NCBI GenBank assembly: GCA_028554795.2
Contig: CM068828.1
Coordinates: forward strand, 18,995,936-19,059,935
Direction of reading: 5' to 3'
DNA: 64,000 bases
Source: Sinohyriopsis cumingii
Lineage: Eukaryota > Mollusca > Bivalvia > Unionida > Unionidae
Made by a program: the position numbers and the translations under genes. Shown here one piece after another: positions 43,444 through 61,884 of the stretch. Below the pieces are notes generated by a model. It worked only from the letters and a program-made list of their open reading frames with translations. It did no database searches and was not told where the DNA came from. The number at the start of each line of letters is the position of its first letter. Positions within the stretch are counted from its first letter, which is position 1.

Positions 43444-43479
43444 AGCCTTTTCAGTGCTACCCAGTACTCTAGAAAAGAG
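43444..43479 (+). terminator. Histone-type 3' end element, gene 1
   Basis: AGCCT-TTTC-AGTGCT (43444-43458) can pair as five base pairs with one bulged T, and is followed by ACCCA and then AAAAGAG at 43473-43479. The arrangement is that of a replication-dependent histone mRNA stem-loop plus purine-rich downstream element. One base seems lost from the left arm. Confidence 0.6.
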
Positions 43480-43734
43480 ATACTAATTCAATTGCCTTAG
43501 GTATGTTAGTAAGTTAAAAACTAGAAGTGTGCCTATAATCACTTCTTTTGTTTGACTTTGTTAGAAGTGTGTCGATAAGCACTTCGTTTTCAGTAACTTG
43601 TCAAATAGGCAGTGAGTTTTTGATAGTAGTTAGGGTCTGAAGGTAAAAAGTGAGTGAGTGTTTCTTTTAAGTCCGCGTGATATATGTTTATTGGGGTAAT
43701 TATATAGACAATTTAAGTTTTAGTGACGGGATGT

Positions 43735-43795
43735 TTTCCTTCACGTCCGTGCTTGAGAAATATAAATAAGCACTCATCAGTCTGGCTACCCATTT
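43735..43795 (+). promoter_or_regulatory. Core promoter of small gene 2 (TATA module)
   Basis: TTTTCCTTCACGTCCGTGCT then TGAGAAATATAAATAAG with the TATA box at 43761-43768; an initiator-like CAGTCTGGCTACCCATT follows about 15 bp later. Very similar to the modules at 42990 and 44975. Confidence 0.68.
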
Positions 43796-43817
43796 TCAAC
43801 GAGACAACTAAAAGACG

Positions 43818-44317
43818 ATGAACAGACTCACCAAGCTTACTGAACTCCAGATGCACCTGGAGCATGCCAGGCGCCTCCTGGATGAGCTCAACATGGAGAC
43901 AGTCCAGGAAAAGGATAGGATAGGAGAGGAGGAGGAAAAAAGAAGAAAGAAGAGGGGAAGGAAAAGAAAAGAACTATCCTACCACACCTCATGCTGAGAC
44001 CTCTGTGTCAGGTCAAACTTGAGTCGAGGACACGTCCACAGAAGCAAAGACCACAACCACTACCAACATAGCAGCCTCTAACAACACCACAGCCAGTAGC
44101 AATACAGGCGCGTGCGGAAGAAATAAGGAGACCTCAATATCCAAGAGCATGAAATAGGAGAAGACAGAGGGAAGTATTCACTATCCCTGAGAGTGAAGAC
44201 TGGGAGAGTGAAGCAAATCAACCTCCCTCAGCGCTCCCAACCACAACGGTGAATTGGGAGAATGATTGGAGTAGTCGATGCGTGTGTGGGGCACGGACTG
44301 AGAGACGTAATCGCTAA
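43818..44317 (+). pseudogene. Small gene 2: charged coiled-coil protein, broken
   Basis: The ATG at 43818 opens 59 codons, MNRLTKLTELQMHLEHARRL followed by a Glu-rich then Lys/Arg-rich run (EEEEKRRKKRGRKRKE), ending at TGA 43995-43997. Another frame carries on with basic and proline/threonine-rich sequence to CGARTERRNR and TAA 44315-44317, interrupted by two stops near 44070 and 44155. The end of this second frame fits the stem-loop position, so the gene probably spans the whole region with a frameshift near 43980. Family unknown. Confidence 0.55.
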
Positions 44318-44343
44318 CAGGTGCATCTGGAGTTTAAAAAAAC

Positions 44344-44380
44344 AGCCCTTCTCAGGCTACCCTAATACTCTAGAAAAGAG
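44344..44380 (+). terminator. Histone-type 3' end element, gene 2
   Basis: AGCCCT-TCTC-AGGCT at 44344-44358: the arms pair except for one missing G on the right. It is followed by ACCCT and AAAAGAG at 44374-44380. It begins 27 nt after the predicted stop codon. Confidence 0.6.
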
Positions 44381-44454
44381 ACTATTCAAATTGCCAATTT
44401 GTGTAAATGTGGAGTAGTGTGATTATAAACACTCACTCCTTTAGTGATATTATT

Positions 44455-44925
44455 GTGTGTGTGTGTGTGTTTGTATGAGCTCACGTAAGTTTGTGTGGAT
44501 AGTAGAGTGTGTGATTGTATAAGTGAGAATAGGCTTGTGTGGATAGTAGATGTTTTTGGTCAGTAAGCGTTCGCGTCCGTTTGTCTGAACAGCAAGGTAT
44601 GTGGTTTTTTCCTTTTCCTTCCGTGTGGATGGTATATTTGGGTTTGGTTTTGTCTCCTTCCAGTGTGTGGATAGTAATATTGTGGTTTGTTTTTCTCCTT
44701 CCCGTGTGTGGATAGTAATTTGAGGTTTTGTTTTCGATCCTTCCCGTGTGTGGATAGTAATTTGGGGTTTGTTTTTGTTTTCTTCCTCTTCCCGTGTATA
44801 GATAGTATATTAGTGGTTTGCTTTTCTTTCGCTTGTGTGAATAGTAAATGTGGGGTTTGTTTTTTCTTCTTCCGGTGTGTGGATAGTAAATTTAGGGTTT
44901 GTGGATGGTATATAATAGTTTTTAT
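44455..44925 (+). repeat. Degenerate minisatellite, about 60-bp units
   Basis: Seven or so copies of CCTTCCCGTGTGTGGATAGT plus AATTTGGGGTTTG-TTTT between genes 2 and 3. The ORF through it (phenylalanine/cysteine-rich repeats) is a by-product. Confidence 0.85.
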
Positions 44926-44969
44926 CTCTCCTTCTGTACGAATAGTAGATAATATGAGAAGTGAGTGTA

Positions 44970-45040
44970 AGGGATGTTTTCCTTCCCTTCCGTGCTTAAA
45001 GTATATAAAGGGAAGCGTTCATCATTTGCGCCATTCAATG
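44970..45040 (+). promoter_or_regulatory. Core promoter of small gene 3 (TATA module)
   Basis: GGGATGTTTTCCTTCCCTTC followed by CGTGCTTAAAG and TATATAAA at 45002-45009, with an initiator-like CATCATTTGCGCCATTC downstream. Confidence 0.68.
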
Positions 45041-45058
45041 GAATAACAAAAGAAGAAG

Positions 45059-60360: not shown

Positions 60361-60364
60361 CCAT

Positions 60365-60402
60365 TACTACTACTACTACTACTACTACTACTACTACTAC
60401 TG
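60365..60402. repeat. (ACT)n microsatellite
   Basis: Twelve ACT trinucleotides, then GATGATGATGA. Confidence 0.96.
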
Positions 60403-60781
60403 ATGATGATGAGTCGGATAATAGTAGTATATGGGGGCTGTTTACTGACAATGGACAAAGACATTACAGACCACCCCCTTGGGTATGTTTAATGACAAGC
60501 CTTTTCAGCACACCCTGAGCACGTTTACGGACAATGGGAATTTAGCTTGGGGGGAATATTGGGCCTGTTTACGGACAGGAGAAAGTGGGGATGAGCAGGA
60601 ATGGAACTGGTGATGTGACGTCGCGGTACTGGAGATTAGCAACAAATACAGTAGAGATATAGACATAGACATATAGAACACATACATAGACCGATGAACA
60701 TCAATCTATCATACCTTAACTATAAAATCGACTTAATTTTTTCTTTTGGCAAGAAAGTAAAGCTTTTAGAGGCATATGAGT

Positions 60782-60797
60782 GGCCTTGAAAAGGGTC
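60782..60797 (-). terminator. Histone-type 3' end element, gene 4
   Basis: Minus-strand GACCCT-TTTC-AAGGCC has four of six stem pairs, loop TTTC, flanks AAA and ACTCA, and a purine stretch TAAAAG 13 nt further on (60769-60763). The stem is decayed, but the block as a whole is nearly identical to 45644-45695. Confidence 0.55.
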
Positions 60798-60799
60798 TT

Positions 60800-61026
60800 T
60801 GGTTTTTTGATAACACCATTTCGTTAACATAGATGGCATTGCATAGATCTTCTTCTTTTTCTCAAACTTCTTCTGATTTCTGGACCGTAGATGAGGACTC
60901 GCTTCAGACAGCCTTGTCTCTCCACATAAATTCTTCTTTTCCAAACGCTCGTCTGACATACATGGGTAAGTCCGAGCGGAATAGCATCGACGATACGAGG
61001 GTAGATGATTCTACGTTAGTCCACAT
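60800..61026 (-). pseudogene. Small gene 4, minus strand, frameshifted
   Basis: The ATG at 61026-61024 opens 40 codons (MWTNVESSTLVSSMLFRSDL, then PMYVRRAFGKEEFMWRD) to a stop at 60904. The overlapping frame 60959-60800 continues with a lysine-rich stretch (SRNQKKFEKKKKIY) and MPSMLTKWCYQKTKDP, reaching the stem-loop. Probably one frameshifted gene of about 75 residues. Family unknown; only its 3' end is shared with gene 3. Confidence 0.48.
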
Positions 61027-61044
61027 CGTGTCGTGAGAACAGGT

Positions 61045-61255
61045 AAAGGGAATGAAGTGAACCGCTTGTTTATTATAGTGGAAGAGCGGATCGAAACGGA
61101 TTGAGTTTTTCACCAATCCTAATACGCGTTACAAAATTCAGTTACAGTGCTAAGTCTGTCTTCCCATTCGAAGATAGCTAACTGTGACGTCACATTCCCT
61201 ATATAGATGCGCTAGCGTCTGTGTGCAGCAAATTCATGCGACAGAGCTTTCAAAC
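61045..61255. promoter_or_regulatory. Divergent promoter region between genes 4 and 5
   Basis: On the minus strand CTATAATAAA (61078-61069) lies about 45 bp before the gene 4 ATG. On the plus strand CTATATAGA (61199-61207) lies about 50 bp before the gene 5 ATG. Just upstream of the latter is the perfect palindrome GTGACGTCAC (61184-61193), a consensus CRE/ATF site. Confidence 0.6.
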
Positions 61256-61812
61256 ATGACGGAAACTAAGAAGACAATGAATTGGGGTGCACCGGCCGTG
61301 GAGACGAGAAGCGATGGCATAGCAGCGACTACCGAAGTCCAGAAGAGACCGATTTTAATTGGGATTTAGTGGATTTTCTCTCTTCTTCGCAAGAATTTGT
61401 TCCAATACCAGTACGTTCGCCACCTTCTCCTTTCTTATCACAATTCAAGCTTTTCTCCTTCAACAACAGCAACAGAGAGAAGAAGAAGCAAGACGAAGGA
61501 AACAATAGCAAGAAGAAGAAGCAGCAGAGAAGAAACAAGGCCTAGGAGAGAAGGAGAACTGAAGTTTAAATGGTGACGTTACTCTTCGACATTTTGGTAG
61601 AGTTAAGGAGTCGGAAACAAATGTATCAGACTTCTTTAATACGACCCAAGAGAAAAATACGTTCCCGAGCCAAGCAACACAACCCTGTTGCTACGCCTGA
61701 GATACCCACCCTAGTGATATCAACCAAATCATCGACAGAAGCAAGTCCAGAAATAGGCCTTGGCCGTGACAAAGGGATGAGGCAGTTAAAGCCGATTACG
61801 TCCCGTTCCTGA
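61256..61812 (+). pseudogene. Small gene 5: basic, proline/serine-rich protein, frameshifted
   Basis: The ATG at 61256 (MTETKKTMNWGAPAVETRSD) ends after 37 codons. An overlapping frame (61282-61545) continues FNWDLVDFLSSSQEFVPIPV with a Lys/Arg/Gln-rich end, and a third (61570-61812) reads MYQTSLIRPKRKIRSRAKQH, then ISTKSSTEASPEIGLGRDKG, ending at TGA 61810-61812. Together about 180 residues. The stem-loop follows 31 nt later, which supports this stop as the true one. Family unknown. Confidence 0.52.
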
Positions 61813-61843
61813 GTGTGTTTTTTTAAGATCACAAATACCCAAC

Positions 61844-61884
61844 GGACCTTTTCAGGGCTACCCACCTCTATTGAAGAGAGAAAG
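61844..61884 (+). terminator. Histone-type 3' end element, gene 5
   Basis: GGACCT-TTTC-AGGGCT (61844-61859) pairs at five of six positions counting one wobble; flank ACCCA at 61860-61864; purine element GAAGAGAGAAAG at 61873-61884. TAATTCAATTGCC follows, as it does after the gene 1 element. Confidence 0.62.

Follow-up and report, generated by a model that had tools for sequence, protein, structure and literature searches.

The mRNAs of replication-dependent histone genes carry no poly(A) and are made mainly in S phase, and in the pathway that forms their 3' ends SLBP binds a stem, a downstream element pairs with the U7 small nuclear RNA and CPSF73 cuts the transcript, as described in PMC9756948. 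The same source gives histone genes which bear a poly(A) signal in addition to the histone tail, human H2AC18 among them. Here we describe what are almost certainly 3'-end elements of the histone type on small, non-histone genes of a Polinton, a mobile and virus-like element, in a stretch of 64,000 nucleotides (nt) of the bivalve Sinohyriopsis cumingii (assembly GCA_028554795.2, contig CM068828.1, positions 18,995,936 to 19,059,935 of the forward strand), to which we refer as the window. To our knowledge histone genes are almost the sole clients of the SLBP/U7 pathway in animals, and its regular use by a virus or mobile element would be a first.

The tails share with replication-dependent histone 3' ends, as represented by the Rfam family Histone3 (RF00032), a stem with a UUUC-type loop, an A-rich 5' flank and an ACCCA-type 3' flank, a purine element about 14 nt past the stem and a short distance from the stop codon. 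They differ from them in that the genes are non-histone and borne by a mobile element, and in that the outer pair of the stem is A-U in two of the gene families, A1 and A2. The dual-signal histone genes such as H2AC18 are a further likeness as some Polinton tails also lie near an AATAAA, although the former encode histones and the Polinton AATAAA has no conserved place. In its gene content the element resembles Polinton/Maverick and adintovirus-like elements, with a capsid gene, a type-B DNA polymerase, a protease-like gene and terminal inverted repeats, and it is unlike four related loci from elsewhere in having the histone-type tail. In the literature searched, which was mostly without subscription papers and was judged in part by listed titles and abstract openings, no report came up of histone-type tails on Polinton, Maverick, adintovirus or transposable elements or on viruses, and on adintoviruses and histones passages of PMC11071296 concern histone-like proteins.

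Tail sites in the window

A first-pass annotation had placed histone-type 3' ends at 43444, 44344, 45647 and 61844 on the plus strand and at 60797 on the minus strand, and the letters confirm all five sites. They do belong to non-histone Polinton genes, as it had proposed, and to five different gene families (A1, A2, B, C and D), all of which are decayed in this copy. Gene A1 (43055..43411, plus strand, 118 amino acids), for which we found nine protein homologues, is followed by a stem-loop with an ACCCA flank at 43444..43463, where the stem is decayed and was read alongside the better-kept A1 tails of loci L035, L036 and L038, and by the purine element AAAAGAGA at 43473..43480. The frame of A2 (43818..44317, plus strand) is broken, its start and end being placed by eye after A2 of L037, and its stem-loop and flank at 44344..44363, again with a decayed stem, are of a kind of which 12/12 A2 tails elsewhere in the genome pass the test described below; here the purine element, also AAAAGAGA, lies at 44374..44381. 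Gene B (45059..45635, plus strand) contains two in-frame stops and a shifted end and has 48% identity to the intact protein P0121 (E 3e-54), and its stem-loop at 45647..45667 keeps 6 pairs with a UUUG loop and an ACUCA flank, followed by AAAAGA at 45677..45682. On the minus strand a piece of gene C (60907..61128, a frame similar by eye to C of L006-L033) stands before a stem-loop with 4/6 pairs and an ACUCA flank at 60777..60797 and the element AAAAGC at 60762..60767. Lastly the broken frame of gene D (61256..61812, plus strand, its start set by eye after D of L039) leads to a stem-loop with 5/6 pairs and an ACCCA flank at 61844..61864 and to the purine element GAAGAGAGA at 61873..61881. All of the purine elements were read from the letters.

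The stop codon was claimed to lie 11-32 nt before the stem in four cases, which is what we found (A1 32, A2 26, B 11 and D 31 nt), and the letters of the window copy of C give no clear stop. The base defects reported in the stems, as expected of dead copies, are likewise present, with only the sites at 45647 and 61844 keeping at least five of six canonical pairs. The AATAAA noted at the A1 stop is there as well; within 400 nt after the stop this signal occurs in 0/3 other A1 copies tested, with an ATTAAA at 209 in one.

Three of the five sites were matched by Rfam Histone3, all under its gathering score of 34 bits: 45642-45686 on the plus strand (27.9 bits, E 9e-4), 61839-61884 on the plus strand (20.2 bits, E 0.71) and 60758-60802 on the minus strand (18.0 bits, E 4.3), with E-values corrected for 4227 families. 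No further match was found in the window up to E 10, the sites at 43444 and 44344 being unmatched. A histone-consensus pattern allowing up to three mismatches found the same three sites where 0.01 would be expected by chance, and a relaxed stem scan gave two extra chance-like matches, at 17507 and 4405, without a purine element. When the tails were folded alone a hairpin of 6 base pairs (bp) and a 4-nt loop was the best fold in 0/5 window tails and in 3/3 comparison tails (B of L037, A2 of L036 and a host H2B). The evidence of the window alone is suggestive, and the proof rests on better-kept copies in the same genome and on the host histone genes.

Tails of better-kept copies and of host histone genes

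The 2.90-Gb genome that holds the window was searched with Histone3, and loci from it are named L0xx. The search scored 75 of 589472 first-look candidates, so the result is no census of tails, and all 75 scored matches lie above the gathering score (34.5-45.6 bits, on 24 contigs). All 75 loci were read and each matches by tblastn A2 together with B or B2, or B, B2, C or D, where B2 is a B-like variant gene that also carries a histone-type tail. In the commonest Polinton tail the stem reads GGCCCU-UUUC-AGGGCC and the flank is ACCCA. That histone genes had been mistaken for Polinton genes was considered and rejected: queries with H2A, H2B, H3 and H4, H1 not being among them, match 0/75 loci at thresholds of 1e-3 and 1e-2, and the same queries do match L067, a host histone locus.

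Intact stems were also found in tails which were not themselves matches of the search, 32 of 34 of these (A1 4, A2 12, C 3 and D 15) passing a test that asked for a stem of 5-6 bp, a loop at most one letter off UUUC and a flank at most one letter off ACCCA. All six pairs are present in 25 and the purine element in 32 of the 34, and the two that fail are A1 of L037, which keeps four pairs, and D of L031, whose tail has been lost. These 34 tails lean to well-kept elements because another tail of each element was a top match. By comparison 0/2000 random 200-nt windows drawn from positions 1-36000 of the window pass the same stem, loop and flank scoring, as do 0/13 tails of the major capsid protein (MCP), ORF2, protease (PRO), DNA polymerase (PolB) and zinc-knuckle genes of the same elements, the PolB tail of L039 being only 93 nt long. 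With these random windows and the 0.01 pattern matches expected in the window, chance was rejected as the origin of the tails.

The purine element, typically similar to AAAAGA and described in the first-pass annotation as about 15 nt on, starts 9 nt past the flank in 69/72 tails and 10 nt past it in 2, and is absent from 1. Sites in L035-L044 that repeat sites of L008-L034, and matches falling short of the protein's end, were dropped before the counts of 34 and 72 were taken; among the repeated sites, those of the A1 rows and a single D site in L042 were kept. Within L035-L044 Histone3 itself recovers 15 Polinton tails, 11 of them at 43.5-44.6 bits and four at 35.6-41.8.

The genes for the host histones are arranged in tandem, in repeats of about 8.27-8.29 kb, on many small contigs (C310, C531, C561, C582, C725 and others). 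One repeat unit, that of L067, encodes H3, H4, H2B and H2A (by tblastn) and H1 (by eye), and each gene has a stem-loop 27-38 nt past its stop. The stems read GGCCCU/AGGGCC in four and GGUCCU/AGGACC, a one-pair variant, in H1, and the downstream purine elements are CUAGAAAAGA in four and CCCGAAAAGG in H2A, with an AAAAG core. The Polinton flank is mostly ACCCA, and the flanks of the host genes are ACACA, ACAAA, AUACA, ACACA and ACUUU; as the flanks differ and the stem and purine core are alike, the signals of the element are of the host kind and no exact copy of these host tails. The five host tails score 35.0-39.4 bits with Histone3, and most scored Polinton tails (to 45.6 bits) fit the family better than this one host set, so that matches to RF00032 need not be histones. 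Since the L067 tails belong to a many-copy repeat and are absent from the 75 scored, the scored list is no ranking of the genome.

Pairing in the stem was assessed on an alignment of 41 sequences, 39 of them distinct (33 Polinton, 3 window and 5 host tails, with the D tail of L031 left out). Overall 94.9% of paired cells pair and 14/234 cells are changed on both sides; 0/500 shuffles reach either value, and partners slid out of register pair in 2.6-65%. The compensatory change looked for in the stem is present in that the outer pair does switch between A-U and G-C on both sides together, but nearly all of it falls on this one pair: 13 of the 14 doubly changed cells are the outer pair, A-U in A1 and A2 and G-C elsewhere, and the 14th is host H1. 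With double changes confined to about one pair, the pairing supports the structure and is no proof by itself. Over 32 tails the loop is conserved most (0.98), then the flank (0.94), the purine element (0.91) and the stem arms (0.89 and 0.91), compared with 0.70 in the spacer and 0.41-0.48 upstream, the upstream values being lowered because the ungapped alignment meets length changes there. The small Polinton genes are themselves under constraint, with a mean dN/dS (ratio of nonsynonymous to synonymous substitution rates) of 0.2 for C (42/55 pairs usable), 0.44 for D (3/3), 0.23 for A1 (3/3), 0.3 for B (2/3) and 0.31 for B2 (1/1). By the pattern used the stem stands 15-36 nt after the stop in 11/12 A1, A2, B, B2 and D tails.

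Anatomy of the element

In the pieces fetched, the genes for capsid, ORF2, protease, A1, A2 and B or B2 follow one another in the same orientation in the right part of the element. The left part has D and C pointing away from each other, and past D come a zinc-knuckle gene and the polymerase. The tails of C and B/B2 face outward and the likeness between the C and B ends starts about 10 nt before the stem. Terminal inverted repeats were found between L018 and L021 (91% over 518 nt) and between L009 and L031 (70% over 463 nt). Because the C/B likeness spans the tails, those of B/B2 and C are part of the inner edge of the terminal repeat and not independent of each other, while A1, A2 and D have their tails inside the element. 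L009 (B2, minus strand) and L031 (C, plus strand) lie 25.4 kb apart on contig C11 and face outward, an arrangement expected of the opposite ends of a single element; the stretch between them was read in part. In L042 four stem-loops occur within 3 kb (2166-5045), those of D on the minus strand, C on the plus strand, C or D on the minus strand and D on the plus strand, as though two element ends stood near each other. The D gene of L031/L044 has lost its stop and tail, its frame continuing into polymerase sequence (687 amino acids), which may be a natural loss of the tail.

The window contains the MCP gene at 40439..41669 (plus strand), with a broken frame and no histone-type tail (tblastn with P0001, 70% and 83% identity in two pieces), and this double-jelly-roll capsid gene is also present in L035-L037. 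Its capsid homologues number 237 at E <= 0.001, and among the best 120 of the 237, which are those listed, are proteins named from Saccostrea, Ostrea and Mercenaria. The protease frame at 42181..42618 (plus strand) is open and similar by eye to PRO of L035, for which the adenovirus-protease family Peptidase_C5 gave a weak match (E 0.02) whose 15.0 bits fall short of the 21.3 cut-off. Some 228 nt past its stop, at 42849..42854, stands an AATAAA, which may serve the capsid/protease block as its poly(A) signal, and the signal is likewise found 110-221 nt past the PRO stop in 3/3 other copies (L035, L036 and L038). Within 400 nt AATAAA was found for PRO in 3/3, for the zinc-knuckle gene in 1/4, for MCP in 0/3, for ORF2 in 0/2 and for PolB pieces in 0/2. 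As the protease gene ends the capsid block and is then followed by AATAAA, transcripts of the element probably end in two different ways. At 62812..63351 (plus strand) a frame similar by eye to L039:6246-7925, which has a DNA_pol_B_2 match, begins the DNA polymerase gene; frames of L039 and L044 match DNA_pol_B_2 (PF03175) above its cut-off, which marks a type-B polymerase, presumably a protein-primed one.

Of the small genes, B has two protein homologues, and A2, C and D were recognised by their likeness, judged by eye, to genome copies. Homologues of the A1 and B proteins are known from other databases. Pfam gave only weak sub-threshold matches to A1, A2, B, B2, C and D, which we disregarded, and the predicted structure of B, a helical bundle, had no match in PDB at E <= 0.001. 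A1, A2, B and B2 have by eye a common upstream block GATGTTTTCC.TCACGTCCG.GCTTT followed by a TATA-like stretch (L036 2750-4399, L037 2381-4373 and upstream of L038 5446), and D has TGACGTCA and TATATA upstream, as if there were two classes of promoter. Elsewhere in the window, 16978-17032 on the minus strand matches the type-P1 twister ribozyme family (46.5 bits, E 3.9e-7, under the gathering score of 67.2), and L002 has a weaker match at 11482-11546 (28.9 bits).

Alternative explanations and implications

Intact copies, paired changes, the purine element and the host tails together bear out the proposal of histone-type 3' ends on non-histone Polinton genes, and judged by sequence we consider it likely that this Polinton lineage routes its small genes A1, A2, B/B2, C and D, each with a promoter of its own, through the SLBP/U7 pathway of the host. 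Host SLBP would bind the Polinton stem, the host U7 small nuclear ribonucleoprotein would pair with the purine element and CPSF73 would cut near the flank, giving a Polinton mRNA without poly(A) that would be present mainly in S phase; the gain for the element may be timing with host DNA synthesis. By analogy we infer cleavage, RNA without poly(A) and U7 complementarity for the Polinton transcripts, the complementarity staying an inference because no U7 gene was found. Somewhat less firmly, though still on balance, we favour two classes of RNA, a polyadenylated capsid/protease block and five or six histone-ended small genes which would be expressed in S phase and served by SLBP, U7 and the histone locus body.

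Several results weigh against routing through the host pathway. Histone-type tails are absent from four loci of other sources that have related capsid genes (L001-L004, from records of an Escarpia endosymbiont, a Bathymodiolus symbiont, a Breoghania bin and a Rickettsiaceae bin), and the compensatory change is mostly that of one pair, with two of five covariation measures, pairs changed on both sides and further pair types, not above the shuffles. Host U7 was not recovered from the genome, either by Rfam RF00066, where no match came up and no control rang so that the empty result is uninformative, or by pattern, where 23 of 25 matches are one repeat-like sequence and the other two are not U7-like. 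Host SLBP was not found in six frames by Pfam or by the human protein, which is again uninformative; since the host histone genes have such ends, U7 and SLBP must both exist in the host. Of 12 A1, A2, B, B2 and D tails, 6 also have an AATAAA or ATTAAA no more than 400 nt past the stop, and D of L040 and of L041 has a poly(A)-type signal between stop and stem. The capsid genes of L001-L004, related to those of animal Polintons and found in contigs deposited as bacterial bins, probably reflect host contamination. In a viral collection no relatives were found by capsid, A1 or D protein, nor by stem-loop patterns.

The poly(A) signals in half of these tails could mean that the tails are real and yet the mRNAs mostly polyadenylated, the stem being a relic or a back-up, and histone genes with both signals do exist (PMC9756948). 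We regard this as unlikely, for the position of the AATAAA is not conserved, the signals are missing from the other 6/12, and conservation is higher in the stem, loop and purine element than in the sequence around them. A role of the hairpin as DNA, in replication or integration from the terminal inverted repeat, would suit the tails of B/B2 and C, which begin that repeat (518 nt at 91% in L018 vs L021), and leaves the internal tails of A1, A2 and D unexplained; this appears improbable given also that the tails lie on the sense strand, 15-36 nt from stops, and have their flank and purine element on one side only, like the host histone genes.

Hairpins at transcript ends are used by other virus-like elements, and the stem might be a generic terminator with no tie to SLBP or U7, but loop, flank, spacing and purine element match as well and are common to the host histones, which makes such a terminator more improbable still. 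Least credible of all is that the tail encodes protein. The window frames of B and C do run through the stem, as does B of L012, but the tail recurs on genes that are unrelated, and not in the same frame. For B the coding peptide was rejected, as the intact homologues P0121 and P0122 from other sources reach their end, ...IKRWWN(N/K)GR(K/T), ahead of the stem, and in 22/30 loci the longest frame closes 15-27 nt short of it, the others ending nearer or farther or, in L012, reading through.

If the Polinton lineage does send its small genes through the histone pathway, these would be natural, multi-copy, non-histone substrates from which the requirements of the pathway could be read, such as the change in the outer pair, the loop and the spacing. 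RNA data selected for poly(A) would then miss these genes, and the tails would offer a hint as to how Polintons couple their expression to the DNA replication of the host.

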